Origin: Siphonodentalium dalli
Taxonomy: Eukaryota; Mollusca; Scaphopoda; Gadilida; Siphonodentaliidae
Length of the DNA: 64,000 nt
Reading direction: 5' to 3'
Assembly (NCBI GenBank): GCA_032622095.1
Contig: CP136063.1
Location: 184,987,956-185,051,955 of the forward strand
The translations under genes and the position numbers were made by a program. Below are positions 10,803 through 63,619 of the stretch, one piece after another. The notes under the pieces were generated by a model. That model searched no databases and was not told the origin of the DNA. It saw only the letters and a list, made by a program, of their open reading frames with translations. Position 1 is the stretch's first letter, and each line of letters begins with the position of its first letter.

Positions 10803-10838
10803 CTGCAAGAAAAGAAACCATTCTGATTATATGACTAT

Positions 10839-12670: not shown

Positions 12671-13031
12671 TTAACCCTTTACCCAACAAACCGGCCAAAA
12701 CCGGCCAAATAAAGCTTCAACAGATTAAAATATCTTCGGTCTGTCTCAATAGAACCATATAAATATGGATATCATTGGAACCGGCTCCTTGACTACATTG
12801 TGATAGTTACAGTTATGCCCTGTGCCAATGCATTCTCTTATATATGCGAGTCGACCATAGGTCGCCTCGCATATATAAGAGAATGCATTGGCCTTACATT
12901 CTTTAACAATTTTATAATTTTTAATGTGTTAAGCCAATGCATTCTCTTATATATGCGAGGCGACCTATGGTCGACTCGCATATATAAGAGAATGCATTGG
13001 CACAGGGCCCTTCTGTTGGGTAAAGGGTTAA
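12671..13031. mobile_element. TTAA piggyBac-type MITE, copy 3 (361 bp, central deletion)
   Basis: Both TTAA ends and the CCCTTTACCCAACA termini are present. Relative to the 5388 copy it lacks ~39 bp of the AT-rich spacer between the two hairpins (first hairpin about 12826-12892, second about 12932-12998). Hairpin stems are intact. The 85-codon frame at 12800-13057 is an artefact. Confidence 0.9.
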
Positions 13032-24800: not shown

Positions 24801-26300
24801 GATAATAAGATAATGAGCCTATGGTAATAAGATAATGAGCCTATGATAATAAGCCTATGATAATAAGATAATGAGCCTGTGATAATAAGATAATGAGCCT
24901 ATGATAATAAACATATGTTAATAAGATAATGAGCCTATAATAATAAGATAATGAGCCTATGGTAATACGATAATGAGCCTATGCTAATAAGATAATGAGC
25001 CTATGGTAATAAGATAATAAGCATATGATAATAAGATAATGAGCCTATGATAATAAGATAATGAGCCTATGATAATAAGAAAATGAGCCTATGATAATAA
25101 GATAATGAGCCTATGGTAATAAGATAATGAGCCTATGGTAATAAGATAATGAGCCTATGGTAATAAGATAATGAGCCTATGGTAATAAGATAATGAGCCT
25201 ATAGTAATAAGCCTATGATAATAAGATAATGAGCCTATGGTAATAAGATAATGAGCCTATGATAATAAGCCTATGATAATAAGATAATGAGCCTATGTTA
25301 ATAAGATAATGAGCCTATGATAATAAGATAATGAGCCTATAGTAATAAGATAATGAGCCTATGGTAATAAGATAATGAGCCTATGATAATAAGATAATGA
25401 GCCTATGGTAATAAGATAATGAGCCTATGGTAATAAGATAATGATCCTATGATAATAAGATAATGAGTCTATGATAATAAGATAATGAGCCTATGGTAAT
25501 AAGATAATGAGCCTATGGTAATAAGATAATGAGCCTATAATAATAAGATAATGAGCCTATGATAATAAGATAATGAGCCTGTGATAATAAGATAATGAGC
25601 CTATGATAATAAGATAATGAGCCTATGGTAATAAGATAATGAGCCTATGATAATAAGATAATGAGCCTATCATAATAAGATAATGAGCCTGTGATAATAA
25701 GATAATGAGCCTATGATAATAAGATAATGAGCCTATGATAATAAGATAATGAGCCTATGATAATAAGATAATGAGCCTATGGTAATAAGATAATGAGCCT
25801 ATGGTAATAAGATAATGAGCCTATGATAATAAGATAATGAGCCTATGATAATAAGATAATGAGCCTATGCTAATAAGATAATGAGCCTATGGTAATAAGA
25901 TAATGAGCCTATGATAATAAGATAATGAGCCTATGATAATAAGATAATGAGCCTATGATAATAAGATAATGAGCCTATGGTAATAAGATAATGAGCCTAT
26001 GGTAATAAGATAATGAGCCTATGATAATAAGATAATGAGTCTATGATAATAAGATAATGAGCCTATGGTAATAAGATAATGAGCCTATGGTAATAAGATA
26101 ATGAGCCTATGATAATAAGATAATGAGCCTATGATAATAAGATAATGAGCCTGTGATAATAAGATAATGAGCCTATGATAATAAGATAATGAGCCTATGG
26201 TAATAAGATAATGAGCCTATGATAATAAGATAATGAGCCTATGATAATAAGATAATGAGCCTATGGTAATAAGATAATGAGCCTATGGTAATAAGTCTAT
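15802..26300. repeat. 22-bp satellite array 1 (~10.5 kb, ~475 units)
   Basis: A 22-bp unit with core AGATAATGAGCCTATG followed by A or G and TAATAA repeats for about 10.5 kb. Common variants are GCCTGTG, GAGTCTA, a shortened unit that drops GATAATGA, and a rare TAATTTGCCT form. Marker variants recur together at larger spacings, so a higher-order structure is overlaid on the 22-bp unit. Every full unit contains AGATAA, and units with A at the variable base also contain TGATAA; both fit the GATA-factor consensus WGATAR. No open frame of note is present. Confidence 0.97.
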
Positions 26301-31532: not shown

Positions 31533-31922
31533 TTAGTTGGCGAAGCGCTTTGTCCTGGAGATGTATTTCTGTATTTCTCTGAAAAATTTTGCGTTGGTTT
31601 TGGGTGTTAATTCGGGGCATCCATACAGAAGTTTGTGTGTTGTCAGGTTGCATATATCATTTAATGACTGGAGAAGTGAGTTTCTTTCAGCTGTGTATCT
31701 ATCGCAATTCATTAGGTAATGGTCGTTGTCCTCTAATTGTCCGCATAAACAATATGGGTGATCGGCGATGAAATTTGTGTACTTGTGATAATTTAGATCG
31801 CTGCAGTTGAGTCTGAGGCGGGTGTGGTTAATTTGTGTTTTTCTGGTAATAGCTTCATAGTAATATCGGGGTACTCCCTCTCTAGTACAGTTTAAGGACT
31901 TTGTGAATGATGCAAGGGACTC
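31533..31922 (-). pseudogene. LINE ORF2 C-terminal CCHC-like segment, cut off by an in-frame stop
   Basis: After the TAA that ends the RT frame, the same frame stays open for about 129 codons to TAA at 31533-31535. It contains LNCSDLNYH and then CLCG..EDNDHYLMNCDRY, the spaced C-x-C...H....C pattern found after the RT domain of CR1/Jockey-type LINEs. It is therefore the true C-terminus of ORF2, removed by a nonsense mutation in this copy. Confidence 0.8.
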
Positions 31923-33098
31923 TTAACTTGTTGCGTTCGGGTCGAGTTTATTCCAGAGGTCTGTTGTTGAGGGGATGAAGGATTTCTTGAAGGAAGTGGA
32001 ATCGAACTTTGGGGCTCTCAGGGAATTAGCCTGTCGGGTGTTAACATTTGTTATTTCAACGTTTGTTGAGCGTATTAGATTTCGCAGATAAGAAGGGGCT
32101 TGGCCAGACATCATTTTGTAAAAGAGACGGAGCTTTAAACGTTTCCGCCGTACGGCGAGGAGTTCCCATCCGGTTTCCGTCAGGAGAGATTTGTTACTGG
32201 CAGATCGGGTTGCACCTGTTGCTATACGAGCTGCTTCATATTGTACTTTTTCTATGTCATCGCTTTCTTCTTTGGTGAAACCATCCCAGACAACACAAGC
32301 GTATTCTAATACAGTGCGTACCAGGGTAAAGTAGCATCTTTCTAATGATGCTCTATCCAACGAGAAACGATGTTTTCTGATAAGGGCTATTCTTTTCCAT
32401 GCTGAGCTTAATAAATTATCTATGTGTGGCTTCCATTTTCCGTCGCTACTTAAAACGACTCCAAGATGTGTATGAAGTTTTACTTCCGTGATGGGTTCAT
32501 TGTTCATATAAAGGGTTGGGTGGTCGATTAGATTTCTCTTCCTAGTGCAAGTTAACGCTTCAGTTTTTAAGACATTAAATTTTACGAGCCATTTGTTTGA
32601 CCAGGATTCAAGTCGTTTGACATCCTGTTGTAATCTTAGTGCGCAAACAGTCGGATCTTCTATTGAAAGAGATATAGATGTATCGTCAGCGAAAAGGCGG
32701 ATATTACATGATATGTCGTTAACAATGTCGTTAATAAAAACAAGGAATAGGATAGGGCCTAGTACTGAGCCTTGTGGAACTCCAGCTGTAATGGTTCCCC
32801 AGTTTGAGGCTTCGGATCCCATAACTACACGTTGGTGTCTTCCACGGAGGTACGATCCGAACCACTTTAAAATATTGTCGCGGATACCCACCGCGCTTAG
32901 CTTATATAATAAGCCATCGTGCCACACTTTGTCAAATGCCTTGCTGATGTCGAAGAATAGTAGGCGGGCGTCGCGTTCATCATCTAGTGATTTCGCCAAG
33001 TGATGGTATATGTCGCATAACTGATATGATGTTGAATCTGATGGCACAAATCCCGACTGTCGTTCGGTTATGATATTATTTGACTGGAGATATGACAT
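31923..33098 (-). pseudogene. LINE reverse transcriptase, catalytic part
   Basis: 391 codons from the first Met downstream of the insertion. RT motif A is LLFFDISKAFDKVWHD (residues 47-61, catalytic Asp50), motif B AGVPQGSVLGP (105-115), and motif C LFADDT (135-140) with the two catalytic aspartates. The thumb and connection follow. The frame also stays open upstream of this Met to the insertion point at 33159 and joins the NYRPIS motif on the far side. The Met is internal, not a start. It is non-functional because the N-terminal half is 11.4 kb away. Confidence 0.92.
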
Positions 33099-33150
33099 TA
33101 AATGCTTTGCAACACACTTCTCAAAAACCTTTCCAAAAACTCCTAATAAG

Positions 33151-33159
33151 GAGATTGGT
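33151..33159. repeat. left 9-bp target-site duplication of the foldback insertion
   Basis: GAGATTGGT, matched exactly at 44550-44558. It lies in the codons for the RPIS part of the RT motif. Retaining one copy restores the reading frame. Confidence 0.92.
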
Positions 33160-33174
33160 GGAAGTGTCTATTCG

Positions 33175-33228
33175 CCATCGGATGGCAAATAGCGATTCTA
33201 CCGATATGCGCTATTTGCCATCCGATGG
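33175..33228. repeat. left terminal hairpin of the foldback transposon
   Basis: A perfect 20-bp stem, CCATCGGATGGCAAATAGCG, closes over a 14-base loop. The right end has the same hairpin with the loop in inverse orientation. Confidence 0.92.
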
Positions 33229-33308
33229 TATTTAAAAAAAAAGAAAACATATCATATCATCACAATACGCTATTATAACGAGGATTCCTACCGCCTTCGT
33301 GATCATTA

Positions 33309-36300
33309 GGCCCAGTTGACCGTCGGTTGACCACCTACAGATATCATGGGGGGATGGCAAATAAGAAATCGACAAATTTTGAAGGAAATTTCGTATAGTT
33401 TGAACATTTAGTGGCACAAGCTGTCGCTATATGGCCACATAATCACCATTTGTACCCGCCTTACTGAAAACCCGGACCAGTTGACCGTCGGTTGACCACC
33501 CACGGATATCCTGGGGGGATGGCAAATAAGAAATCGACAAATTTTGAAGGAAATTTCGTATAGTTTGAACATTTAGTGGCACAAGCTGTCGCTATATGGC
33601 CACATAATCACCATTTGTACCCGCCTTACTGAAAACCCGGACCAGTTGACCGTCGGTTGACCACCCACGGATATCCTGGGGGATGGCAAATAAGAAATCG
33701 ACAAATTTTGAAGGAAATTTCGTATAGTTTGAACATTTAGTGGCACAAGCTGTCGCTATATGGCCACATAATCACCATTTGTACCCGCCTTACTGAAAAC
33801 CCGGACCAGTTGACCGTCGGTTGACCACCCACGGATATCCTGGGGGGATGGCAAATAAGAAATCGACAAATTTTGAAGGAAATTTCGTATAGTTTGAACA
33901 TTTAGTGGCACAAGCTGTCGCTATATGGCCACATAATCATCATTTGTACCCGCCTTACTGAAAACCCGGACCAGTTGACCGTCGGTTGACCACCTACAGA
34001 TATCATGGGGGGATGGCAAATAAGAAATCGACAAATTTTGAAGGAAATTTCGTATAGTTTGAACATTTAGTGGCACAAGCTGTCGCTATATGGCCAAATA
34101 ATCACCATTTGTACCCGCCTTACTGAAAACCCGGACCAGTTGACCGTCGGTTGACCACCCACGAATATCCTGGGGGGATGGCAAATAAGAAATTGACAAA
34201 TTTTGAAGGAAATTTCGTATAGTTTGAACATTTAGTGGCACAAGCTGTCGCTATATGGCCACATAATCACCATTTGTACCCGCCTTACTGAAAACCCGGA
34301 CCAGTTGACCGTCGGTTGACCACCCACGAATATCCTGGGGGGATGGCAAATAAGAAATCGACAAATTTTGAAGGAAATTTCGTATAGTTTGAACATTTAG
34401 TGGCACAAGCTGTCGCTATATGGCCACATAATCACCATTTGTACCCGCCTTACTGAAAACCCGGACCAGTTGACCGTCGGTTGACCACCCACGAATATCC
34501 TGGGGGGATGGCAAATAAGAAATCGACAAATTTTGAAGGAAATTTCGTATAGTTTGAACATTTAGTGGCACAAGCTGTCGCTATATCGCCACATAATCAC
34601 CATTTGTACCCGCCTTACTGAAAACCCGGACCAGTTGACCGTCGGTTGACCACCCACGGATATCCTGGGGGGATGGCAAATAAGAAATCGACAAATTTTG
34701 AAGGAAATTTCGTATAGTTTGAACATTTAGTGGCACAAGCTGTCGCTATATGGCCACATAATCATCATTTGTACCCGCCTTACTGAAAACCCGGACCAGT
34801 TGACCGTCGGTTGACCACCTACAGATATCATGGGGAGATGGCAAATAAGAAATCGACAAATTTTGAAGGAAATTTCGTATAGTTTGAACATTTAGTGGCA
34901 CAAGCTGTCGCTATATGGCCAAATAATCACCATTTGTACCCGCCTTACTGAAAACCCGGACCAGTTGACCGTCGGTTGACCACCCACGAATATCCTGGGG
35001 GGATGGCAAATAAGAAATTGACAAATTTTGAAGGAAATTTCGTATAGTTTGAACATTTAGTGGCACAAGCTGTCGCTATATGGCCACATAATCACCATTT
35101 GTACCCGCCTTACTGAAAACCCGGACCAGTTGACCGTCGGTTGACCACCCACGGATATCCTGGGGGGATGGCAAATAAGAAATCGACAAATTTTGAAGGA
35201 AATTTCGTATAGTTTGAACATTTAGTGGCACAAGCTGTCGCTATATGGCCACATAATCATCATTTGTACCCGCCTTACTGAAAACCCGGACCAGTTGACC
35301 GTCGGTTGACCACCTACAGATATCATGGGGGGATGGCAAATAAGAAATCGACAAATTTTGAAGGAAATTTCGTATAGTTTGAACATTTAGTGGCACAAGC
35401 TGTCGCTATATGGCCACATAATCACCATTTGTACCCGCCTTACTGAAAACCCGGACCAGTTGACCGTCGGTTGACCACCCACGGATATCCTGGGGGGATG
35501 GCAAATAAGAAATCGACAAATTTTGAAGGAAATTTCGTATAGTTTGAACATTTAGTGGCACAAGCTGTCGCTATATGGCCACATAATCACCATTTGTACC
35601 CGCCTTACTGAAAACCCGGACCAGTTGACCGTCGGTTGACCACCCACGGATATCCTGGGGGGATGGCAAATAAGAAATCGACAAATTTTGAAGGAAATTT
35701 CGTATAGTTTGAACATTTAGTGGCACAAGCTGTCGCTATATGGCCACATAATCATCATTTGTACCCGCCTTACTGAAAACCCGGACCAGTTGACCGTCGG
35801 TTGACCACCTACAGATATCATGGGGGATGGCAAATAAGAAATCGACAAATTTTGAAGAAAATTTCGTATAGTTTGAACATTTAGTGGCACAAGCTGTCGC
35901 TATATGGCCACATAATCACCATTTGTACCCGCCTTACTGAAAACCCGGACCAGTTGACCGTCGGTTGACCACCCACGAATATCCTGGGGGGATGGCAAAT
36001 AAGAAATCGACAAATTTTGAAGGAAATTTCGTATAGTTTGAACATTTAGTGGCACAAGCTGTCGCTATATGGCCACATAATCACCATTTGTACCCGCCTT
36101 ACTGAAAACCCGGACCAGTTGACCGTCGGTTGACCACCCACGAATATCCTGGGGGGATGGCAAATAAGAAATCGACAAATTTTGAAGGAAATTTCGTATA
36201 GTTTGAACATTTAGTGGCACAAGCTGTCGCTATATGGCCACATAATCACCATTTGTACCCGCCTTACTGAAAACCCGGACCAGTTGACCGTCGGTTGACC

Positions 36301-37814
36301 ACCCACGGATATCCTGGGGGGATGGCAAATAAGAAATCGACAAATTTTGAAGGAAATTTCGTATAGTTTGAACATTTAGTGGCACAAGCTGTCGCTATAT
36401 GGCCACATAATCATCATTTGTACCCGCCTTACTGAAAACCCGGACCAGTTGACCGTCGGTTGACCACCTACAGATATCATGGGGATATGGCAAATAAGAA
36501 ATCGATAAATTTTGAAGGAAATTTCGTATAGTTTGAACATTTAGTGGCACAAGCTGTCGCTATATGGCCACATAATCACCATTTGTACCCGCCTTACTGA
36601 AAACCCGGACCAGTTGACCGTCGGTTGACCACCCACGGATATCCTGGGGGGATGGCAAATAAGAAATCGACAAATTTTGAAGGAAATTTCGTATAGTTTG
36701 AACATTTAGTGGCACAAGCTGTCGCTATATGGCCACATAATCATCATTTGTACCCGCCTTACTGAAAACCCGGACCAGTTGACCGTCGGTTGACCACCTA
36801 CAGATATCATGGGGGGATGGCAAATAAGAAATCGACAAATTTTGAAGGAAATTTCGTATAGTTTGAACATTTAGTGGCACAAGCTGTCGCTATATGGCCA
36901 CATAATCACCATTTGTACCCGCCTTACTGAAAACCCGGACCAGTTGACCGTCGGTTGACCACCCACGAATATCCTGGGGGGATGGCAAATAAGAAATCGA
37001 CAAATTTTGAAGGAAATTTCGTATAGTTTGAACATTTAGTGGCACAAGCTGTCGCTATATGGCCACATAATCACCATTTGTACCCGCCTTACTGAAAACC
37101 CGGACCAGTTGACCGTCGGTTGACCACCCACGGATATCCTGGGGGGATGGCAAATAAGAAATCGACAAATTTTGAAGGAAATTTCGTATAGTTTGAACAT
37201 TTAGTGGCACAAGCTGTCGCTATATGGCCACATAATCATCATTTGTACCCGCCTTACTGAAAACCCGGACCAGTTGACCGTCGGTTGACCACCTACAGAT
37301 ATCATGGGGGATGGCAAATAAGAAATCGACAAATTTTGAAGGAAATTTCGTATAGTTTGAACATTTAGTGGCACAAGCTGTCGCTATATGGCCATATAAT
37401 CACCATTTGTACCCGCCTTACTGAAAATCCGGACCAGTTGACCGTCGGTTGACCACCCACGAATATCCTGGTGGGATGGCAAATAAGAAATCGACAAATT
37501 TTGAAGGAAATTTCGTATAGTTTGAACATTTAGTGGCACAAGCTGTCGCTATATGGCCACATAATCACCATTTGTACCCGCCTTACTGAAAACCCGGACC
37601 AGTTGACCGTCGGTTGACCACCCACGGATATCCTGGGGAGATGGCAAATAAGAAATCGACAAATTTTGAAGGAAATTTCGTATAGTTTGAACATTTAGTG
37701 GCACAAGCTGTCGCTATATGGCCACATAATCACCATTTGTACCCGCCTTACTGAAAACCCGGACCAGTTGACCGTCGGTTGACCACCCACGGATATCCTG
37801 GGGGGATGGCAAAT
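33309..37814 (+). repeat. 165-bp satellite, left arm (~27 monomers)
   Basis: The monomer contains GGATGGCAAATAAG, TTTTGAAGGAAATTTCG, GGCACAAGCTGTCGC and ACCAGTTGACCGTCGG. Monomers are nearly identical, differing mainly at CACC/CATC ATTTG, CCCACGGATATCC versus CTACAGATATCAT and the length of the G run. Variant types recur at multiples of 165 bp, so blocks were amplified together. Confidence 0.96.
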
Positions 37815-40800
37815 GGTGATTATGTGGCCATATAGCGACAGCTTGTGCCACTAAATGTTCAAACTATACGAAATTTCCTTCAAAATTTGTCGATTTCTTA
37901 TTTGCCACCCCCCCCCCCCATGATATCTGTAGGTTGTCAACCGACGGTCAACTGGTCCGGGTTTTCAGTAAGGCGGGTACAAATGATGATTATGTGGCCA
38001 TATAGCGACAGCTTGTGCCACTAAATGTTCAAACTATACGAAATTTCCTTCAAAATTTGTCGATTTCTTATTTGCCATCCCCCCAGGATATCCGTGGGTG
38101 GTCAACCGACGGTCAACTGGTCCGGGTTTTCAGTAAGGCGGGTACAAATGGTGATTATGTCGGCCATATAGCGACAGCTTGTGCCACTAAATGTTCAAAC
38201 TATACGAAATTTCCTTCAAAATTTGTCGATTTCTTATTTGCCATCCCCCCAGGATATTCGTGGGTGGTCAACCGACGGTCAACTGGTCCGGGTTTTCAGT
38301 AAGGCGGGTACAAATGGTGATTATGTGGCCATATAGCGACAGCTTGTGCCACTAAATGTTCAAACTATACGAAATTTCCTTCAAAATTTGTCGATTTCTT
38401 ATTTGCCATCCCCCCAGGATATTCATGGGTGGTCAACCGACGGTCAACTGGTCCGGGTTTTCAGTAAGGCGGGTACAAATGGTGATTATGTGGCCATATA
38501 GCGGCAGCTTGTGCCACTAAATGTTCAAACTATACGAAATTTCCTTCAAAATTTGTCGATTTTTTATTTGCCATCCCCCCAGGATATCCGTGGGTGGTCA
38601 ACCGACGGTCAACTGGTCCGGGTTTTCAGTAAGGCGGGTACAAATGGTGATTATGTGGCCATATAGCGACAGCTTGTGCCACTAAATGTTCAAACTATAC
38701 GAAATTTCCTTCAAAATTTGTCGATTTCTTATTTGCCATCCCCCCAGGATATCCGTGGGTGGTCAACCGACGGTCAACTGGTCCGGGTTTTCAGTAAGGC
38801 GGGTACAAATGGTGATTATGTGGCCATATAGCGACAGCTTGTGCCACTAAATGTTCAAACTATACGAAATTTCCTTCAAAATTTGTCGATTTCTTATTTG
38901 CCATCCCCCCATGATATCTGTAGGTGGTCAACCGACGGTCAACTGGTCCGGGTTTTCAGTAAGGCGGGTACAAATGATGATTATGTGGCCATATAGCGAC
39001 AGCTTGTGCCACTAAATGTTCAAACTATACGAAATTTCCTTCAAAATTTGTCGATTTCTTATTTGCCATCCCCCCAGGATATTCGTGGGTGGTCAACCGA
39101 CGGTCAACTGGTCCGGGTTTTCAGTAAGGCGGGTACAAATGGTGATTATGTGGCCATATAGCGACAGCTTGTGCCACTAAATGTTCAAACTATACGAAAT
39201 TTCCTTCAAAATTTGTCGATTTCTTATTTGCCATCCCCCCATGATATCTGTAGGTGGTCAACCGACGGTCAACTGGTCCGGGTTTTCAGTAAGGCAGGTA
39301 CAAATGATGATTATGTGGCCATATAGCGACAGCTTGTGCCACTAAATGTTCAAACTATACGAAATTTCCTTCAAAATTTGTCGATTTCTTATTTGCCATC
39401 CCCCCAGGATATCCGTGGGTGGTCAACCGACGGTCAACTGGTCCGGGTTTTCAGTAAGGCGGGTACAAATGGTGATTATGTCGGCCATATAGCGACAGCT
39501 TGTGCCACTAAATGTTCAAACTATACGAAATTTCCTTCAAAATTTGTCGATTTCTTATTTGCCATCCCCCCAGGATATTCGTGGGTGGTCAACCGACGGT
39601 CAACTGGTCCGGGTTTTCAGTAAGGCGGGTACAAATGGTGATTATGTGGCCATATAGCGACAGCTTGTGCCACTAAATGTTCAAACTATACGAAATTTCC
39701 TTCAAAATTTGTCGATTTCTTATTTGCCATCCCCCCAGGATATTCATGGGTGGTCAACCGACGGTCAACTGGTCCGGGTTTTCAGTAAGGCGGGTACAAA
39801 TGGTGATTATGTGGCCATATAGCGGCAGCTTGTGCCACTAAATGTTCAAACTATACGAAATTTCCTTCAAAATTTGTCGATTTCTTATTTGCCATCCCCC
39901 CAGGATATTCGTGGGTGGTCAACCGACGGTCAACTGGTCCGGGTTTTCAGTAAGGCGGGTACAAATGGTGATTATGTGGCCATATAGCGACAGCTTGTGC
40001 CACTAAATGATCAAACTATACGAAATTTCCTTCAAAATTTGTCGATTTCTTATTTGCCATCCCCCCATGATATCCGTGGGTTGTCAACCGACGGTCAACT
40101 GGTCCGGGTTTTCAGTAAGGCGGGTACAAATGGTGATTATGTGGCCATATAGCGACAGCTTGTGCCACTAAATGTTCAAACTATACGAAATTTCCTTCAA
40201 AATTTGTCGATTTCTTATTTGCCACCCCCCCCCCCCCATGATATCTGTAGGTTGTCAACCGACGGTCAACTGGTCCGGGTTTTCAGTAAGGCGGGTACAA
40301 ATGATGATTATGTGGCCATATAGCGACAGCTTGTGCCACTAAATGTTCAAACTATACGAAATTTCCTTCAAAATTTGTCGATTTCTTATTTGCCATCCCC
40401 CCAGGATATCCGTGGGTGGTCAACCGACGGTCAACTGGTCCGGGTTTTCAGTAAGGCGGGTACAAATGGTGATTATGTCGGCCATATAGCGACAGCTTGT
40501 GCCACTAAATGTTCAAACTATACGAAATTTCCTTCAAAATTTGTCGATTTCTTATTTGCCATCCCCCCAGGATATTCGTGGGTGGTCAACCGACGGTCAA
40601 CTGGTCCGGGTTTTCAGTAAGGCGGGTACAAATGGTGATTATGTGGCCATATAGCGACAGCTTGTGCCACTAAATGTTCAAACTATACGAAATTTCCTTC
40701 AAAATTTGTCGATTTCTTATTTGCCATCCCCCCAGGATATTCATGGGTGGTCAACCGACGGTCAACTGGTCCGGGTTTTCAGTAAGGCGGGTACAAATGG

Positions 40801-43800
40801 TGATTATGTGGCCATATAGCGGCAGCTTGTGCCACTAAATGTTCAAACTATACGAAATTTCCTTCAAAATTTGTCGATTTTTTATTTGCCATCCCCCCAG
40901 GATATCCGTGGGTGGTCAACCGACGGTCAACTGGTCCGGGTTTTCAGTAAGGCGGGTACAAATGGTGATTATGTGGCCATATAGCGACAGCTTGTGCCAC
41001 TAAATGTTCAAACTATACGAAATTTCCTTCAAAATTTGTCGATTTCTTATTTGCCATCCCCCCAGGATATCCGTGGGTGGTCAACCGACGGTCAACTGGT
41101 CCGGGTTTTCAGTAAGGCGGGTACAAATGGTGATTATGTGGCCATATAGCGACAGCTTGTGCCACTAAATGTTCAAACTATACGAAATTTCCTTCAAAAT
41201 TTGTCGATTTCTTATTTGCCATCCCCCCATGATATCTGTAGGTGGTCAACCGACGGTCAACTGGTCCGGGTTTTCAGTAAGGCGGGTACAAATGATGATT
41301 ATGTGGCCATATAGCGACAGCTTGTGCCACTAAATGTTCAAACTATACGAAATTTCCTTCAAAATTTGTCGATTTCTTATTTGCCATCCCCCCAGGATAT
41401 TCGTGGGTGGTCAACCGACGGTCAACTGGTCCGGGTTTTCAGTAAGGCGGGTACAATTGGTGATTATGTGGCCATATAGCGACAGCTTGTGCCACTAAAT
41501 GTTCAAACTATACGAAATTTCCTTCAAAATTTGTCGATTTCTTATTTGCCATCCCCCCATGATATCTGTAGGTGGTCAACCGACGGTCAACTGGTCCGGG
41601 TTTTCAGTAAGGCGGGTACAAATGATGATTATGTGGCCATATAGCGACAGCTTGTGCCACTAAATGTTCAAACTATACGAAATTTCCTTCAAAATTTGTC
41701 GATTTCTTATTTGCCATCCCCCCAGGATATCCGTGGGTGGTCAACCGACGGTCAACTGGTCCGGGTTTTCAGTAAGGCGGGTACAAATGGTGATTATGTG
41801 GCCATATAGCGACAGCTTGTGCCACTAAATGTTCAAACTATACGAAATTTCCTTCAAAATTTGTCGATTTCTTATTTGCCATCCCCCCAGGATATTCGTG
41901 GGTGGTCAACCGACGGTCAACTGGTCCGGGTTTTCAGTAAGGCGGGTACAAATGGTGATTATGTGGCCATATAGCGACAGCTTGTGCCACTAAATGATCA
42001 AACTATACGAAATTTCCTTCAAAATTTGTCGATTTCTTATTTGCCATCCCCCCATGATATCCGTGGGTTGTCAACCGACGGTCAACTGGTCCGGGTTTTC
42101 AGTAAGGCGGGTACAAATGGTGATTATGTGGCCATATAGCGACAGCTTGTGCCACTAAATGTTCAAACTATACGAAATTTCCTTCAAAATTTGTCGATTT
42201 CTTATTTGCCATCCCCCCATGATATCTGTAGGTGGTCAACCGCCGGCAACTGGTCCGGGTTTTCAGTAAGGCGGGTACAAATGATGATTATGTGGCCATA
42301 TAGCGACAGCTTGTGCCACTAAATGTTCAAACTATACGAAATTTCCTTCAAAATTTGTCGATTTTTTATTTGCCATCCCCCCAGGATATCCGTGGGTGGT
42401 CAACCGACGGTCAACTGGTCCGGGTTTTCAGTAAGGCGGGTACAAATGGTGATTATGTGGCCATATAGCGACAGCTTGTGCCACTAAATGTTCAAACTAT
42501 ACGAAATTTCCTTCAAAATTTGTCGATTTCTTATTTGCCATCCCCCCAGGATATCCGTGGGTGGTCAACCGACGGTCAACTGGTCCGGGTTTTCAGTAAG
42601 GCGGGTACAAATGGTGATTATGTGGCCATATAGCGACAGCTTGTGCCACTAAATGTTCAAACTATACGAAATTTCCTTCAAAATTTGTCGATTTCTTATT
42701 TGCCATCCCCCCATGATATCTGTAGGTGGTCAACCGACGGTCAACTGGTCCGGGTTTTCAGTAAGGCGGGTACAAATGATGATTATGTGGCCATATAGCG
42801 ACAGCTTGTGCCACTAAATGTTCAAACTATACGAAATTTCCTTCAAAATTTGTCGATTTCTTATTTGCCATCCCCCCAGGATATTCGTGGGTGGTCAACC
42901 GACGGTCAACTGGTCCGGGTTTTCAGTAAGGCGGGTACAAATGGTGATTATGTGGCCATATAGCGACAGCTTGTGCCACTAAATGTTCAAACTATACGAA
43001 ATTTCCTTCAAAATTTGTCGATTTCTTATTTGCCATCCCCCCATGATATCTGTAGGTGGTCAACCGACGGTCAACTGGTCCGGGTTTTCAGTAAGGCGGG
43101 TACAAATGATGATTATGTGGCCATATAGCGACAGCTTGTGCCACTAAATGTTCAAACTATACGAAATTTCCTTCAAAATTTGTCGATTTCTTATTTGCCA
43201 TCCCCCCAGGATATCCGTGGGTGGTCAACCGACGGTCAACTGGTCCGGGTTTTCAGTAAGGCGGGTACAAATGGTGATTATGTGGCCATATAGCGACAGC
43301 TTGTGCCACTAAATGTTCAAACTATACGAAATTTCCTTCAAAATTTGTCGATTTCTTATTTGCCATCCCCCCAGGATATTCGTGGGTGGTCAACCGACGG
43401 TCAACTGGTCCGGGTTTTCAGTAAGGCGGGTACAAATGGTGATTATGTGGCCATATAGCGACAGCTTGTGCCACTAAATGATCAAACTATACGAAATTTC
43501 CTTCAAAATTTGTCGATTTCTTATTTGCCATCCCCCCATGATATCCGTGGGTTGTCAACCGACGGTCAACTGGTCCGGGTTTTCAGTAAGGCGGGTACAA
43601 ATGGTGATTATGTGGCCATATAGCGACAGCTTGTGCCACTAAATGTTCAAACTATACGAAATTTCCTTCAAAATTTGTCGATTTCTTATTTGCCATCCCC
43701 CCATGATATCTGTAGGTGGTCAACCGCCGGCAACTGGTCCGGGTTTTCAGTAAGGCGGGTACAAATGATGATTAATTGGCCATATAGCGACAGCTTGTGC

Positions 43801-44398
43801 CACTAAATGTTCAAACTATACGAAATTTCCTTCAAAATTTGTCGATTTCTTATTTGCCATCCCCTCAGGATATCCGTGGGTGATCAACCGACGGTCAACT
43901 GGTCCGGGTTTTCAGTAAGGCGGGTACAAATGGTGATTATGTGGCCATATAGCGACAGCTTGTGCCACTAAATGTTCAAACTATACGAAATTTCCTTCAA
44001 AATTTGTCGATTTCTTATTTGCCATCCCCCCATGATATCTGTAGGTGGTCAACCGACGGTCAACTGGTCCGGGTTTTCAGTAAGGCGGGTACAAATGATG
44101 ATTATGTGGCCATATAGCGACAGCTTGTGCCACTAAATGTTCAAACTATACGAAATTTCCTTCAAAATTTGTCGATTTCTTATTTGCCATCCCCCCAGGA
44201 TATTCGTGGGTGGTCAACCGACGGTCAACTGGTCCGGGTTTTCAGTAAGGCGGGTACAAATGGTGATTATGTGGCCATATAGCGACAGCTTGTGCCACTA
44301 AATGTTCAAACTATACGAAATTTCCTTCAAAATTTGTCGATTTCTTATTTGCCATCCCCCCATGATATCTGTAGGTGGTCAACCGACGGTCAACTGGG
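37815..44398 (-). repeat. 165-bp satellite, right arm (~40 monomers, inverted)
   Basis: The same monomer in reverse orientation. Higher-order blocks are visible: the variant ATGTCGGCC recurs at about 38158, 39480 and 40477, a long C-run at 37914 and 40221 (2,307 bp, 14 monomers), and GCCGGCAACTGG at about 42241 and 43727 (~1,486 bp, 9 monomers). The three identical 95-codon frames (38015, 39336, 40333) come from the ATGTCGGCC variant joining two monomers in frame and are not genes. Confidence 0.96.
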
Positions 44399-44480
44399 GC
44401 TAATGATCACGAAGGCGGTAGGAATCCTCGTTATAATAGCGTATTGTGATGATATGATATGTTTTCTTTTATTTAAAATA

Positions 44481-44534
44481 CCATCGGATGGCAAATAGCG
44501 CATATCGGTAGAATCGCTATTTGCCATCCGATGG
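44481..44534. repeat. right terminal hairpin of the foldback transposon
   Basis: Same 20-bp perfect stem as the left hairpin, followed by the terminal ...GGCGAATAGCCGCTGCC. Confidence 0.92.
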
Positions 44535-44548
44535 CGAATAGCCGCTGC

Positions 44549-45037
44549 CGAGATTGGTCGGTAGTTTTCTGGATTACTGCGGTCCCCTTTTTTATGGATT
44601 GGGACTACGTTTGCTCGTTTCCATTCAGTTGGAAAATATGCTTCTTTAAGAAAACGATTGTATATTATAGAAAGGGGGGTGCTGAGACTGAGACAATTCT
44701 TCAGAATACGCGGGCTTATTTGGTCGGGTCCAGAGGCTTTGTCGGCTTTTGTTACTTTCAGGGCATTAAAAACGTCAATTTCACTAATTGGGATATTATT
44801 TAGCATGGGGGTGTTTGTCTCGTCGACAGGCGGGTCTGGCAGATCGTAGGTCATATTCAATGAGGCAATATTGCAAAAATAATCATTTAGTACAGTTGCT
44901 TTCTCGTAATCTGAGGAAGAAACTATTCCATTCCTCGAGAGGGGCGGGACCCAATTAACTTTTTTGCGGGACAGTTTGTTGAAAATCTTCCACCATTTTG
45001 AGTCGCCAGTTTCTGGATCTTGAAGGATTGATTCCAT
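44549..45037 (-). pseudogene. LINE ORF2 linker and N-terminal RT part, frameshifted from the endonuclease
   Basis: 163 LINE-derived codons. They include WKIFNKLSRKK, the KADKASGPDQISPRILK motif that opens the RT domain in these LINEs, and VVPIHKKGDRSNPENYRPIS, where the insertion cuts in. The last ~50 codons of the open frame (down to 44390) are read from the insertion. The first Met is internal; this frame continues the endonuclease frame after a one-base slip. Confidence 0.9.
44550..44558. repeat. right 9-bp target-site duplication of the foldback insertion
   Basis: GAGATTGGT, identical to 33151-33159. The next LINE bases encode the NYRP part of the RT motif. Confidence 0.92.
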
Positions 45038-46220
45038 TTTTTGTATATGAATTTTCTTTGAAGTTTCGTACTTCAGTAATTACTTCATTGCGGATTGTCC
45101 GATATTTTTGCCACATGGCTGGGGTGTTCCTAGCTTTTGCAGTTTTGTGTACCCTTTTCCGTTGTCTAATGAGATACTTAACTCTCGGTGTCATCCATTC
45201 AGGCTCGTTCTGACGGCATTTGACAATTTTGCTGGGTACATATTTGACGATAAGATTATTCATATATGATGTGAATGTTGAGCAGATTTCATCAGTTCCC
45301 AGGTTGTCAATTATTCGGTTCCAGTCACATGAACGAATTTCATTGTTTAAGGAAATAAAATTAGCCTCATCATACATGTAAATAAGACGATTAAAAGATT
45401 TGCTTCCTTTCTGTTTGTCTTCGATTTCTATCGTGGCATATACCGGCACATGATAGCGGACTAGATCGGAAAAAAAGGGATCCAGGGTACCAGATCCTTT
45501 CAGTTCACATAGATCATTTATGAATATTAGATCTATTATGGTTTCAGAGTATTCTGTGAAGTTTGTGGAGTCGTGAATAACTTGTTTCAGATTACATTCT
45601 GCGACTATGGTTTGTACTTTCTTGTTTACAGGGTTGTATTGATTTTCATTAAAGTCTCCAGAGACAATTAGTTTGTGTGTGGGATTCGAATTTATGGTGT
45701 CACCGATGTTTTCTAATATGTTGTGCCAGCAATTCACATTTGGGGGGCGGTAAAAAAAACCAATCAACACTCTTTCTCTCGGTAATATAACTTCAAGCCA
45801 AATGCTTTCTAAACCAGGTTTCTCGATATCTTTTCTGCGTGTATAGGCTAAATCGTTTTTGATATAAGCGATCACGCCCCCACCTACACTGTCCGTTCCT
45901 ACTCTGTCGGCTCGCTCGGGTTCGTGAAATCCGTGTATTAGTAAGTCATGCTGGTCCGTTTTATCGCTCAACCAAGATTCCGTAAAGCCGCATATATCGT
46001 AATTTTGTATTTCGGTGGCAAGTATGTCGATTTTAGGGAGGAAACTTTGTACGTTCAAATGGAATAGTGACAGTTGACCATTATTGGTGGGACCAGGATT
46101 TGGTTTAATATCACCAGAAGTGATGAGAAGATGCCTGAACCAGAAGGGAATTCCAATTTGGGTATTGACCAAAAGATTGTGTCGGACGTTTTTTTCGCGT
46201 AGATGTAGTTGAGATTTCAA
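44955..46220 (-). CDS. LINE ORF2 N-terminal part: EEP (APE-type) endonuclease
   Basis: The enzyme nicks genomic DNA to prime target-primed reverse transcription. EEP motifs in order: LFHLNVQS (Asn56), FTESWL (Glu81), GGGVIAYI (113-120), YRPPN, SGDFN (187-191), DLIFIND and SDLVRYHVPV (His257). Just before the domain is SGDIKPNPGP, a motif common at this place in CR1-like LINEs and similar to 2A peptides. The true LINE frame is left at about codon 395, where an A6 run (45037-45042 on the plus strand as T6) shifts it; the last ~27 codons are out of frame. The Met at 46218-46220 is the first in frame, but the real start is uncertain. Confidence 0.9.
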   Translation of the reverse strand: MKSQLHLREKNVRHNLLVNTQIGIPFWFRHLLITSGDIKPNPGPTNNGQLSLFHLNVQSFLPKIDILATEIQNYDICGFTESWLSDKTDQHDLLIHGFHEPERADRVGTDSVGGGVIAYIKNDLAYTRRKDIEKPGLESIWLEVILPRERVLIGFFYRPPNVNCWHNILENIGDTINSNPTHKLIVSGDFNENQYNPVNKKVQTIVAECNLKQVIHDSTNFTEYSETIIDLIFINDLCELKGSGTLDPFFSDLVRYHVPVYATIEIEDKQKGSKSFNRLIYMYDEANFISLNNEIRSCDWNRIIDNLGTDEICSTFTSYMNNLIVKYVPSKIVKCRQNEPEWMTPRVKYLIRQRKRVHKTAKARNTPAMWQKYRTIRNEVITEVRNFKENSYTKNGINPSRSRNWRLKMVEDFQQTVPQKS

Positions 46221-46862
46221 TTTTGTCGTTGTATCTCACCATAAACAGCATGAGTAAGGCCAGTAGTATTTCATTTTTACCAGCGCCCTTTAGTTGTAAT
46301 CCAATGTAAAAGATGAGTAATTCCGATATCAATGGGTCGCATCTATGTTTTCGCTTAGCATAACGCGCGCGAGTATAGAACATGCCTACCCGTGAACGGT
46401 GCGCGTCAGCCAGGATCATCGGTGTATATCTTAGTATATTTTAATTGGGTAGGCAGTTCGTTCCTGTCATCGGTTCGTCTGTTTGAGGCCTGAGTCAATA
46501 GCCGGGGATTGTATGAGTAATCATAAAGATGTAAGGATAGAGAGGGTGTGGCGATGGATGTAAGAATAAAGGTAATAATGATAAGCATGGTATAGAGATA
46601 TACACACATGAAAGTAGAAAATCATAAACAGTTCTGAAAAAAATAATTATATACACTGCAATACTTATGTGTTTGTTTGTAAGTTCAATATATAAAACGG
46701 TGACCTATGATACCAATATTGTCGTGTGAATTAATTCTACCAATATTAGTACAGATTGTGCGAGCGTTTATGGATGAGAATGATCAGATGTGAGCTTACA
46801 ATGTGTAGTAAATGACGGACATCCGTGTGTAAATATATTATGTAACTAAATTACGGATGTAT
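46221..46862 (-). other. probable LINE 5' flank; no ORF1 found
   Basis: Two frames of 102 and 67 codons (46111-46419 and 46406-46609, minus) lack ORF1-like motifs such as a coiled coil, RRM or zinc knuckles. They may be 5' UTR translated by chance. The 5' end of the LINE is not defined. Confidence 0.35.
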
Positions 46863-51294: not shown

Positions 51295-52158
51295 ACTAGC
51301 CGATGAGGCCGGCGTTGTCCGGGCTATTCAAAAACCAAATTTCAAGTCGACAGTTCTACCCGTTTCCGAGATCTGGTCTGCGCATGCGCGAAGCTGGCGT
51401 CGCACGGGCTCGGCGACCCGATAAAATTCGTATCCGGGGCAAGATACATTCACGTACCAAATTTCAAGTCGATAGCTCCACCCGTTTCCGAGATCTTGTC
51501 TGCGCATGCGCGAAACTGGCGTCGCACGGGCTCGGCAACCCGATAAAATTCGTATCCGGGGCAAGATACATTCACATAGCAAATTTCAAGTCGATAGCTC
51601 CACCCGTTTCCGAGATCTCGACTGCGCATGCGCTGCACGGGCGTCGCACGGGCTCGCCAATACGACAGCGACGACCGGCTGGTCAAACTACACACACGTA
51701 CCAAGTTTCGAGTCGATAGCTCCACCCGTTTCCGAGATCTCTTTTGCGCATGCGCTTCACGGGCGTCGCACGGGCTCGCCAATACGACAACGACGATCGC
51801 CTGGTCAAACTACACACACGTACGAAATTTCAAGTCGATAGCTCCACCCGTTTCCGAGATCTGGTCTGCGCATGCGCGAAGCTGGCGTCGCACGGGCTCG
51901 GCGACCCGATAAAATTCTTATCCCGGGCAAGATACATTCACATAGCAAATTTCAAGTCGATATCTCCACCCGTTTCCGAGATCTCGTCTGCGAATGCGCG
52001 AAGCGGGCGCCGCACGGGCTCGCTAATACGACGTTGACGACCGCCTGATCAAACTACACACACGTACCAAGTTACGTCCCGATCGGTCGAGAATCGTAGA
52101 TTTATATAAATGACATACAGACATACAGACAGACAGAGGTCTTCAAAATATATACGAG
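51295..52158 (+). repeat. repeat cassette 1: ~122-bp units with NRF1-like sites
   Basis: It opens ACTAGCCGATGAGGCCGGCG and holds about six units of ~122 bp, each with TTTCAAGTCGATAGCTCCAC, CCGTTTCCGAGATCT and TGCGCATGCGC. It closes with GACATACAGACAGACAGA and CAAAATATATACGAG. Several overlapping frames of 84-138 codons on both strands translate the repeat; their agreement in length reflects the lack of stops in GC-rich units, not coding. Confidence 0.85.
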
Positions 52159-52465
52159 ACTAGCCGATGAGCCCGACGTTGTCCGGGCTATTCAAAAACC
52201 AAATTTCAAGTCAATAGCTCCACCCGTTTCCGAGATCTGGTCTGCGCATGCGCGAAGCTGGTGTCGCACGGGCTCGGTGACCCGATAAAATTCGTATCCG
52301 GGGCAAGATACATTCACATAGCACATAGCAAATTTCAAGTCGATAGCTCCACCCGTTTCCGAGATCTCGTCTGCGCATGCGCTGCACGGGCTCGCTAATA
52401 CGACAGCGACGACCGCCTGGTCAAACTACACACACGTACCAAGTTTCGAGTCGATAGCTCCACCC
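52159..52465 (+). repeat. repeat cassette 2 head with two ~122-bp units
   Basis: Starts with the same ACTAGCCGATGAGCCCG head as 51295, directly after the tail of cassette 1, and carries two to three of the NRF1-like units before changing into the 175-bp satellite. Confidence 0.8.
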
Positions 52466-55440
52466 GTTTCCTGACCCAATTTCTTAAAATCTCAACTGCG
52501 TGTGGCGGAAATCCTATACAGAATTGCCTGTCTGTGATATCGAATTCACGAAGAGCTAGGCCGTGATACTTACTCCTCACTAATTTTAATGGCGTAATAT
52601 GTGAATTTTCGGGGTCCCGACTCTATTTCGTGACCCGTCCTGACCCAATTTCTCAAAATCTGAACTGCGCGTGGTGGAAATCCTCTACAGAATTGCCTGC
52701 CCTGTCTGTGTTGTCGAAATCACGAAGATTTAGGCCGTGATACTTACTCGTCACCAATTTTAATGGCGTAATATGTGTATTTTCGGGGTCCAGACTCTAT
52801 TTCGTGACCAGTCCTGACCCAATTTCTCAAATTCTGAACTGCATGTGGCGGAAATCCTGTACAGAATTGCATGCCCTGTGTGTGATGTCGAAATCACAAA
52901 GAGTTAGGCCGTGATATTAACTCGTCACCAATTTTAATGGCGTAATATATAAATTTTCGGGGTCCAGACTCTATTTCTTGACCCGTCCGGACCCATTTCT
53001 TAAAATCTGAACTGCGTGTGGCGGAAATCCTGTACAGAATTGCCTGCCCTGTCTGTGATGTCGAAATCACGAAGAGTAAAGCCGCTATACTTACTCGTCA
53101 CCACATTAAATGGCGTAATATATGAATTTTCGGGATCCCGACTCTATTTCGTGACCCGTCCTGACCCCATTTCTTAAAATCTGAACTGCGTGTGGCGGAA
53201 ATCCTGTACAGAATTGCCTGCCCTGCTTATGTTGTCGAAATCAGGAAGAGTATGGCCGTGATACTTACTCGTCACCAATTTTAATGGCGTAATATATGAA
53301 TTTCCGGGGTCCCGACTCTATTTCGTGACCCGTCCTGACCCAATTACTCAAAATCTGAACAGCGTGTGGCGGAAATCCTATACATAATTGCATGCCCCTG
53401 TCTGTGATATCGAAAGCACGAAGAGTTAGGCCGTGATACTTACTCGTCACCAATTTTAATGGCGTAATATGTGAATTTTCGGGGCCCCGTCCCTATTTCG
53501 TGACCCGTACTGACCCCATTTCTTAAAATCTGAACTGCGTGTGGCGGAAATCCTATACAGAATTACATACCCTGCCTGTGTTGTCGAAATCACGACGAGA
53601 AAGGCCGTGATACATACTCGTCACACATTTCAATGGCGTAATATATTAATTTCCGGGGTCCTGACTCTATTTCGTGTACCGTCCTGACCCAATTTCTTAA
53701 AATCTCAACTGCGTGTGGCGGAAATCCTATACAGAATTGCCTGTCTGTGATATCCGATTCACGAAGAGCTAGGCCGTGATACTTACTCCTCACTAATTTT
53801 AATGGCGTAATATGTGAATTTTCGGGGTCCCGACTCTATTTCGTGACCCGTCCTGACCCAATTTCTCAAAATCTGAACTGCGTGTGGTGGAAATCCTGTA
53901 CAGAATTGCATGCCCTGTCTGTGTTGTCGAAATCACGAAGATTTAGGCCGTGATACTTACTCGTCACCAATTTTAATGGCGTAATATGTGTATTTTCGGG
54001 GTCCAGACTCTATTTCGTGACTGGTCAGTCCTGACCCAATTTCTCAAATTCTGAACTGCGTGTGGCGGAAATCCTGTACAGAATTGCCTGCCCTGTCTGT
54101 GATGTCGAAATCACGAAGAGTAACGCCGCTATACTTACTCGTCACCACATTAAATGGCGTAATATATGAATTTTCGGGGTCCCGACTCTATTTCGTGACC
54201 CGTCCTGACCCCATTTCTTAAAATCTGAACTGCGTGTGGTGGAAATCCTGTACAGAATTGCCTGCCCTGTCTGTGAAGTCGAAATCACGAAGAGCTAGGC
54301 CGTGATACTTACTCGACACCAATTGTAATGGCGCAATATTTGAATTTTCGGGGTCCCGACTCTATTTCGTGACCCGTCCTGACCCAATTTCTGAAAATCT
54401 CAACTGCTTGTGGCGGAAATCCTGTACAGAATTGCCTGCCCTGCCTGTGTTGTCGAAATCACGAAGAGTAAGGCGGTGATACTTACTCGTCACCCATTTT
54501 AATGGCATAATATGTAAATTTTCGGGGTGCCGACTCTATTTCGTGACCCGTCCTGACCCAATTTAAAAAAAAAAACTGCGTGTGCCGTGGCGGAAATCAT
54601 GTCTAGAATTGTCTGCCCTGCCTGTGTTTTCAAAATCACGAAGAATACGGCCGTGATACTTACTCGTCGCCACTTTAAATGGCGTAATATGTGAATTTTC
54701 GGGGTCCCGACTCTATTTCGTGACCCGCCCTGACCCAATTTCTGAAAATCTCAACTGCGTGTGACGGAAATCCTGTACAGAATTGTCTGCCCTGCCTGTG
54801 TTGTCGAAATCACGAAGTGTAAGGCCGTGATACTTACTCGTCACCACATTAAATGGCGTAATATATGAATTTTCGAGGTCCCGACTCTATTTCGTGACCC
54901 GTCCTGGTCCCATTTCTTAAAATCTGAACTGCGTGTGGCGGAAACCCTGTACAGAATTGTCTGCCCTGTCTGTGCTGTCGAAATCACGAAGAGCAAGGCC
55001 GTGATACTTACTCGTCGCCACTTTAAATGGCGTAATATATGAATTTTTCGGGATCCCGACTCTATTTCGTGCCCCGTCCTGACCCCATTTCTTGAATTCT
55101 CAACTGCATGTGGAGGAAACCCGGTTTTAAATGGTTCACCCTGGCTGGGTTGTCAATATCACGACCAGTAATAGCGTAATACTTACTCGTCGCCACATTA
55201 AATGGCATAATATATGAATTTCCGGGGTCCCGACTCTATTTCGTTACCCGTCCTGATCCCATTTCTTGAAATCTGAATTGCTTGTAGCGGAAATCCTGTT
55301 TGCTATGGTTCACTATGACTGCGTTATCAAAATCACGACGAGTTATGCCGTGATATTTACTCGTCGCCACTTTAAATGGCGTAATATGTGAATTTTCCGG
55401 GGCACGACACTAGTTCGTGAACCGGTCGGGTCACATTTCT
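52466..55440 (+). repeat. ~175-bp satellite (~17 units)
   Basis: Units contain CCTGACCCAATTTCT, CTGCGTGTGGCGGAAATCCT, GTCGAAATCACGAAGAG, GGCCGTGATACTTACTCGTC, TTTTAATGGCGTAATAT and GGGGTCCCGACTCTATTTCG. The CCTGACCC landmark recurs at about 52641, 52816, 52990, 53161, 53336, 53511 and onward, a period of 171-177 bp. Divergence rises toward 55440. Frames of 60-80 codons on the minus strand are fragments of this repeat. Confidence 0.92.
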
Positions 55441-63000: not shown

Positions 63001-63619
63001 TAATGAGCCTGTGATAATAAGATAATGAGCCTATGATAATAAGATAATGAGCCTATGATAATAAGATAATGAGCCTATGATAATAAGATAATGAGCCTAT
63101 GGTAATAAGATAATGAGCCTATGGTAATAAGATAATGAGCCTATGATAATAAGATAATGAGCCTATGATAATAAGATAATGAGCCTATGCTAATAAGATA
63201 ATGAGCCTATGGTAATAAGATAATGAGCCTATGATAATAAGATAATGAGCCTATGATAATAAGATAATGAGCCTATGATAATAAGATAATGAGCCTATGG
63301 TAATAAGATAATGAGCCTATGGTAATAAGATAATGAGCCTATGATAATAAGATAATGAGTCTATGATAATAAGATAATGAGCCTATGGTAATAAGATAAT
63401 GAGCTTATGGTAATAAGATAATGAGCCTATGATAATAAGATAATGAGCCTATGATAATAAGATAATGAGCCTGTGATAATAAGATAATGAGCCTATGATA
63501 ATAAGATAATGAGCCTATGGTAATAAGATAATGAGCCTATGATAATAAGATAATGAGCCTATGATAATAAGATAATGAGCCTATGGTAATAAGATAATGA
63601 GCCTATGGTAATAAGTCTA
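57084..63619. repeat. 22-bp satellite array 2 (~6.5 kb, ~297 units)
   Basis: Same unit, variants and higher-order markers as array 1. From about 60600 to its right edge it follows array 1 (23280-26300) unit by unit at a constant offset of 37,320 bp, with only a handful of substitutions seen by eye. Confidence 0.97.

Follow-up and report, generated by a model that had tools for sequence, protein, structure and literature searches.

Foldback transposons with tandem repeats in their arms are known from Drosophila FB, in which the repeat units are ~31 bp long, much shorter than the 165-bp unit of the element described here from a 64,000-nt stretch of Siphonodentalium dalli DNA (the whole of this stretch is called the window). 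Because fibre-FISH of Tetris, a foldback transposon of Drosophila virilis, showed long TIR-220 arrays between two end domains, the general architecture has already been seen before; in the available text of that report, the arrays reach 66 copies and are thought to have expanded inside the element (PMC4079207). Both Tetris and our element have inverted ends with internal tandem repeats (~220 bp in Tetris) and target duplications (8–10 bp in Tetris, 9 bp here), both are without a transposase, and a 37-bp stretch common to the flanking domain and the repeat of Tetris can be likened to the motif sharing reported below (PMC4079207, as far as that text describes it). The unit length is 165 bp here versus ~220 bp in Tetris. 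In the complete Tetris copies described there, the arms reach 1,735 bp and the flanking domain 866 bp, and a middle domain is present (PMC4079207), whereas our element has a flanking domain of 153 bp, arms of 4.5 and 6.6 kb, and no middle domain, and is resolved at the sequence level.

Comparable size is found in Galileo of the P superfamily: copy 112 of D. willistoni spans 9,021 bp with arms of 4,246 and 4,680 bp, and in the available description it likewise has no transposase segment, identical duplications, and ~140-bp tandem repeats that are unequal between the arms (PMC4168063). However, the duplications of D. willistoni Galileo are 7–8 bp rather than 9 bp, and the tandem regions of copy 112 cover approximately a quarter of one arm and slightly less than half of its partner, whereas here they occupy nearly all of both (PMC4168063, same description). 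In the accessible part of the report on Tm1, a Mutator/foldback family of root-knot nematodes, 45 of 53 elements have 8–10-bp (mostly 9-bp) duplications, with composite inverted ends, unequal tandem repeat numbers, and asymmetric short outer tips as in our element; in contrast, the repeat unit is ~14 bp, two of the elements measure 1,080 and 2,593 bp, and the family includes one copy that has a putative transposase (PMC3169594). Merlin elements, according to the portion of PMC8101967 at hand, resemble ours in ends starting with GG, 8- or 9-bp duplications, and internal tandem repeats (one of 163 bp), but their inverted ends are 24–462 bp long, and our element has no transposase. Non-autonomous Helentron elements of oysters are also mobile carriers of satellite-like arrays to new places, but they belong to another superfamily with a central array, and inverted satellite arms are not mentioned in the abstract (PMC7492417). 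The element is thus of a known kind, represented by Tetris, Tm1, and the 9.0-kb Galileo copy. The initial annotation called both its size and its purely satellite interior unusual; the former is weakened by the 9,021-bp Galileo copy and the Tetris arrays, as described in the available texts (PMC4168063, PMC4079207), while an element made almost entirely of homogenised satellite without a middle domain is indeed unusual.

The insertion occupies window positions 33160–44549 (11,390 bp) inside a LINE retrotransposon (Table 1). The perfect 9-bp target-site duplication GAGATTGGT adjoins the inverted ends, the two features meeting at the same base, where a 9-base match would occur by chance with a probability of 4^-9 = 3.8e-6. 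Inverted-repeat pairing begins at the first base inside each duplication (33160–37814 versus 44549–39887) and continues with 97.6% identity over 4,665 columns. The terminal non-satellite domains of the two ends differ by 6 mismatches and no gaps, and 3 of the 6 lie in the outer 8 bp (hypergeometric P = 0.0018), the element tips being GGAAGTGT and GGCAGCGG; these differences may represent an asymmetry typical of the family instead of elapsed time. Each terminal domain contains a 54-bp hairpin (20-bp stem, 14-nt loop), and when 77 nt were folded for each, the stability z-scores were −8.3 (left) and −6.7 (right), and no shuffle among 200 matched the stability of either hairpin.

Table 1. Features of the insertion and its host LINE (window positions)
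Feature	Position	Strand	Remark
Host LINE, 3′ part, RVT_1	31533–33159	-	one in-frame stop at 31923–31925
Left target-site duplication GAGATTGGT	33151–33159		identical to 44550–44558; adjoins inverted end
Left terminal domain, 153 bp, starting GGAAGTGTCTATTCGCC	33160–33312	+	147/153 identical to reverse complement of 44397–44549
Left terminal hairpin	33175–33228	+	by folding; 12-bp motif once per orientation
Left satellite arm, 27 full ~165-bp monomers + 50 bp	33313–37814	+	by monomer matching and cutting
Centre junction, arms overlap by CAAAT (5 bp)	37810–37814		no middle domain
Right satellite arm, 39 full monomers + 145 bp	37810–44396	-	opposite orientation; by monomer matching and cutting
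1,231-bp exact direct repeat, first copy, right arm	37908–39138	-	14-monomer lag
1,231-bp exact direct repeat, second copy, right arm	40226–41456	-	exact match to first copy
Right terminal domain, 153 bp, starting GGCAGCGGCTATTCGCC	44397–44549	-	compared with left domain
Right terminal hairpin	44481–44534	-	by folding; 12-bp motif once per orientation
Right target-site duplication GAGATTGGT	44550–44558		identical to left copy
Host LINE, 5′ part, endonuclease domain and start of RT	44550–46235	-	frame changes within 44955–45079

When the duplication was collapsed to one copy, a single open LINE reverse-transcriptase (RT) frame was restored through NYRPISLLGVFGKVFEKC. A search with the LINE RT gave 3,637 matches, the best 120 of which were 43–53% identical; among these 120, 94 relatives span the insertion point, all 94 without a gap over the 30 residues around it, and the remaining 26 do not reach across the site. 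For this one case, the order of events is fixed, with the LINE arriving first and the foldback insertion second; a tandem array older than the LINE was ruled out because the empty site contradicts that order.

The insertion has the anatomy of a foldback element: its terminal repeats are long, inverted, and internally tandem, a target-site duplication bounds it, and its empty site is exact. The foldback type of this insertion is well supported, as judged from the duplication, inverted ends, hairpins, and empty site of one locus. The initial annotation had placed an element of ~67 monomers of 165 bp in two head-to-head arms at exactly these coordinates, with 9-bp duplications, inverted termini, and terminal hairpins, cleanly disrupting a LINE reading frame, and each of these features is borne out; its designation as a foldback transposon agrees with this anatomy, for the one locus. 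Mutator (MULE) target duplications range from 8 to 11 bp (approximately 9 bp), and the single copy here has one of 9 bp. The terminal GG and the 9-bp duplication are also those of Merlin (8–9 bp). Helitron and Helentron elements are not known to insert with a target duplication, and they were ruled out by the 9-bp duplication. The P superfamily was rejected because the perfect duplication is 9 bp, versus 7–8 bp in D. willistoni Galileo (PMC4168063, available description).

Satellite of the 165-bp monomer makes up 97.3% of the element, in two head-to-head arms of 4,502 bp (left) and 6,587 bp (right) with 66 full monomers in all, or 68 when partial ones are included. Monomer matches in the window at E ≤ 1e-3 were confined to the two arms; the left match extends 22 bp further outward (to 33291), and the right match ends at 44397 without such an extension. 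The 66 full monomers differ pairwise by a mean of 4.0 alignment columns (2.4%), forming the long, head-to-tail, homogenised array of a satellite DNA. Two right-arm monomers (R05 and R14) have a variant start, which appears as several mismatches under a fixed cut. No transposase gene was found within the element, in which wholly internal open frames reach 98 aa (three are of at least 90 aa).

Both arms begin with the same first monomer type (L01, R01) and in the same monomer phase, and a linked pair of variants (141T followed by 24T/27A/34A in the next monomer) is kept in 7/7 cases on the left and 11/11 on the right; in this sequence comparison, the linked pair and the common starting monomer are counted for a probable shared ancestry of the arms. 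A long common monomer order was not found within the left arm or between the arms, where the longest identical run was 2, a value reached by 288/300 and 281/300 permutations, respectively; therefore, no trace is visible of one arm having simply been copied into the other. Fresh fold-back copying was rejected as well, the monomer order not being common to the arms beyond the linked pair. Variants private to one arm exist, none of them significant alone (Fisher P = 0.06–0.26).

Within the right arm, seven consecutive monomers are identical at a 14-monomer lag (0/300 permutations). The corresponding 1,231-bp duplication is present in this arm only, and because the left arm is without it, the simplest reading is that the duplication arose after the arms did. 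The arms contain 12 singleton substitutions in 10,894 bp, and at this rate 0.34 differences would be expected in the 153 bp compared between the ends, versus the 6 observed (P = 1.5e-6); without the outer 8 bp, there are 3 in 145 bp (P = 0.004). The small number of singletons relative to the end differences is counted for probable satellite turnover in the arms.

The hairpins and the satellite monomer have a 12-bp motif, GGATGGCAAATA, in common. Its 66 exact copies in the window all lie within the element, the two hairpins having 4 and the satellite arms 62. This is the longest exact match between the terminal domain and the monomer, and in a test set up after the motif had been noticed, it was reached in 0/500 shuffles (best, 11 bp); the local alignment score of the two sequences was equalled in 5/500 shuffles, so that its P is only ~0.01.

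We consider it likely that the locus holds a non-autonomous foldback transposon, which a transposase encoded elsewhere in the genome probably brought into the LINE and whose arms probably grew as their repeats exchanged unequally with one another. The exact insertion with its duplication, the restored empty site, the matched ends, the lack of a middle domain, and the large duplication that only the right arm has can be read directly from the locus. Around these, a putative Mutator-like or Merlin-like transposase would recognise the ends and move the element by cut-and-paste. The motif GGATGGCAAATA would be a putative site at which that transposase, or else a host factor, binds, and extra monomers may at first have been tolerated or favoured as added binding sites. 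Binding sites in foldback-like tandem repeats have a precedent in Galileo, according to the available part of PMC3688188. A joint at the CAAAT microhomology may have deleted whatever separated the arms, and unequal exchange or slippage would then have made each arm longer and more homogeneous independently of the other, at least in part after insertion. Growth inside a smaller element, one of two origins offered by the initial annotation, gains some support from the right-arm duplication and the arm-private variants, but no single variant is significant, and the growth may have come before or after this insertion.

The opposite proposition is that the full-size 11-kb satellite block jumped as it is, the whole array being mobilised with no growth after insertion. 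The satellite lies exactly between the inverted ends, and intact duplications are known from foldback-like elements that measure 9.0 kb and have 4-kb arms, as described in the available text (PMC4168063), but the exact duplication missing from the left arm points to recent change, though not necessarily after insertion; we regard this course as possible but doubtful. More speculatively, and with a similarly modest chance, the satellite may be the transposon itself: besides the 153-bp ends, the 165-bp monomer would be the whole mobile unit, each monomer carrying the putative 12-bp recognition motif of the hairpins, and the family would spread by alternating cut-and-paste jumps and runaway arm expansion, seeding satellite loci genome-wide. 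That part of an older genomic satellite was caught between two transposon ends as cargo, rather than arms, is unlikely; the monomers need not come from the ends, with which they have only 12 bp exactly in common, but each of the inverted repeats includes satellite, in mirrored orientations and with the same starting phase and first monomer variant.

Chimeric reads are known to arise from inverted palindromic arrays, and a foldback chimera or collapsed array might have produced the inverted arms. However, the ends differ at 6/153 positions, the arms are unequal in length and in monomer variants, and each end adjoins a different LINE half with one common 9-bp duplication; moreover, the longest exact repeats of the locus (567 bp inverted, 1,231 bp direct) are short for long reads, and the window is without any N, so an assembly artefact is very improbable. 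Still less credible is that the inverted array owes its retention to a transcript that would form long double-stranded RNA feeding small-RNA silencing: if transcribed, arms of such length and identity (97.6% over 4.66 kb) would yield RNA of this kind, but no sequence feature requires that reading.

The locus bears on the question of how new chromosome sites acquire satellite arrays, and a foldback transposon with growing arms is a way in which mobile DNA could seed satellite DNA elsewhere. Here, the order of events is fixed, the empty site is still readable, and one arm has a large exact duplication, so that alleles of differing arm length would allow a direct measurement of arm growth within a defined insertion.

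Relatives were also sought outside the window, in viral, prokaryote, and plasmid collections and with one protein search; no convincing relative, second copy, or transposase emerged from these, which tells against the favoured reading. The satellite and terminus patterns had 0 matches each in a viral contig collection, and the terminus pattern had one 19-bp match in prokaryote genome contigs (Larkinella knui), regarded as chance. A distant search of a plasmid collection with 33160–33480 gave no match, a 98-aa chance frame of the satellite found no candidate in a protein database, and Rfam detected 0 families in the window at the gathering threshold. Among the 120 best RT relatives of the host LINE, four are named as proteins in Candidatus Thiodiazotropha bins.

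The element, a foldback-like insertion with two facing satellite arms between inverted ends, has a total length of 11,390 bp, and its inverted repeat opens on both sides at the first base past a 9-bp direct repeat. The two ends (the outer 153 bp on each side, which are not satellite) match without gaps at 147 of 153 positions, and bases 16–69 of each are predicted to form a hairpin with a 20-bp stem and a 14-nt loop, whose stability was equaled by none of 200 shuffles at either end. The target duplications, inverted termini, and terminal hairpins proposed in the initial annotation were thus all recovered. Three of the six end-to-end differences fall within the outer 8 bp (clustering P = 0.0018). 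These tips (33160–33167 and 44542–44549) differ at three of eight positions, and the adjoining 66 bp are identical; Tm1 elements likewise have asymmetric tips.

The flanks of the element are the two halves of one minus-strand LINE with endonuclease (PF03372, E = 1.1e−7) and reverse transcriptase (PF00078, E = 1.3e−26) domains, and collapsing the duplication restored a single open frame across NYRPISLLGVFGKVFEKCV. A search with the LINE protein returned 3,637 relatives, the best 120 of which (43–53% identity) were used for site analysis: 94 span the insertion site, all of them gap-free over the 30 residues around it, and 26 do not reach across. The restored frame and the gap-free relatives indicate that the LINE is older and that the element was inserted second, in agreement with the clean disruption of a LINE frame originally described. 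The decay of the LINE is mild, with a frame change within 44955–45079 and one in-frame stop (31923–31925). Its N-terminal part (44955–46235, minus strand) contains SGDIKPNPGP, which resembles the 2A-like skipping peptides known in some animal LINEs. Four of the best 120 relatives carry bin names of Candidatus Thiodiazotropha, which are clam symbionts; this may point to a marine animal as the host.

The left arm consists of 27 full 165-bp monomers plus 50 bp, and the right arm, in the opposite orientation, of 39 full monomers plus 145 bp; the arms make up 97.3% of the element. The three frames of at least 90 aa lying wholly within the element (98 aa each) are all satellite sequence, and no match to the monomer was found elsewhere in the window at E = 1e−3. 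No middle sequence separates the two arms, which overlap by 5 bp (CAAAT, 37810–37814); in the monomer consensus this pentamer occurs at 46–50 (and 61–65) and as the reverse complement at 136–140. The junction resembles what would remain if a middle domain had been lost by microhomology deletion.

Full monomers differ pairwise by a mean of 4.0 alignment columns (2.4%). A linked variant (141T, followed by 24T, 27A, and 34A in the next monomer, together spanning approximately 65 bp) is intact in 7/7 cases in the left arm and 11/11 in the right, and the first monomer type is identical in both arms, suggesting most simply, from the sequences, that the two arms descend from a common ancestor. Repeated variants restricted to the right arm (e.g., columns 20, 26, 59, 98, 118, and 131) or the left arm (e.g., columns 42 and 46) were also observed, none of them significant singly (Fisher 0.06–0.26). 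The right arm contains seven successive identical monomers at a 14-monomer lag (0/300 permutations) and an exact repeat of 1,231 bp. The longest identical monomer run was two both within the left arm (matched by 288/300 permutations) and between the arms (281/300). Singleton substitutions in the arms (12 in 10,894 bp) were below the prediction from the end-to-end difference; conversely, the ends showed 6 differences in 153 positions against 0.34 expected, or 3 in 145 against 0.32 without the outer tips. Of 19 singleton entries, the seven in right-arm monomer R26 were left out because they represent an extended G run plus a single substitution that recurs in the partial monomer R40. The singleton deficit is compatible with ongoing turnover inside the arms, and with arm growth that started either before or after this insertion.

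On the evidence of this single locus, to which our conclusions on transposition apply, the element is probably a non-autonomous foldback: a transposase supplied in trans would move it, unequal exchange would lengthen its arms, and a microhomology deletion at CAAAT would have removed the former middle domain. The 9-bp duplication and GG ends are compatible with both Mutator-like elements and Merlin. Among Tm1 elements, 45 of 53 have 8–10-bp duplications, mostly of 9 bp (PMC3169594), and Merlin elements have GG ends, 8–9-bp duplications, and internal tandem repeats (PMC8101967).

Furthermore, the terminal domain (130 bp used) and the monomer have GGATGGCAAATA in common. When the terminal domain was subjected to 500 dinucleotide shuffles, none gave a match of 12 exact bases (best, 11), and five gave the same local alignment score. 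All 66 exact copies in the window (26 plus, 40 minus) lie within the element, four in the two hairpins and 62 in the arms. Because the motif was spotted before its shuffle test, this sharing is suggestive only. Galileo is described as having binding sites for the transposase THAP domain in the internal tandem repeats of its long inverted ends (PMC3688188), and Tetris as having a 37-bp stretch common to flanking domain and repeat, with a binding-site role proposed for its repeats (PMC4079207). By analogy, GGATGGCAAATA may be a putative binding site.

Tandem repeats in foldback arms are already established, and the size initially regarded as unusual is not new in itself, given a Galileo copy of 9,021 bp (PMC4168063). 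The same holds for satellite growth inside such an element, since Tetris repeats can number as many as 66 in one array, and two Tetris end domains were seen by fibre-FISH to bracket long arrays (PMC4079207). In the literature covered, which lies outside the original FB, TU, and TFB1 papers and most subscription papers, no sequence-resolved element was found in which satellite fills the whole interior between the end domains and a middle domain is absent.

Coordinates of the element and of other repeats in the window
Feature	Position	Details
Whole element	33160–44549	
Direct repeat GAGATTGGT (target duplication)	33151–33159 and 44550–44558	9 bp
Hairpin-forming repeat, MITE-like, 3 copies	5425–5787, 11401–11763, 12708–13031	86–96% identical
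Adjoining tandem arrays	51334–52471, 52469–55424	122-bp and 174-bp periods, respectively
22-bp satellite GATAATAAGATAATGAGCCTAT, two large arrays	15803–26295 and 57085–63615	same strand
Inverted repeats	9166–9547 and 10838–11191	~380 bp, 83% identical
Ctr copper transporter frame, exon-like	10390–10848, minus	PF04145, E = 2.5e−13
Second palindromic repeat	1509–3164	1623–2916 vs. own reverse complement, 76% identity
Direct match TTAACAAATAT	1509–1519 and 3154–3164	11 bp

Neither of the first two MITE-like copies is bordered by an 8–11-bp duplication. The Ctr frame lies between the ~380-bp inverted repeats, near whose ends the direct matches were only 8 bp and internal to the repeats themselves. 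The second palindromic repeat is related to these inverted repeats, and TTAACAAATAT may be its target duplication. The two GATAATAAGATAATGAGCCTAT arrays flank the LINE region.
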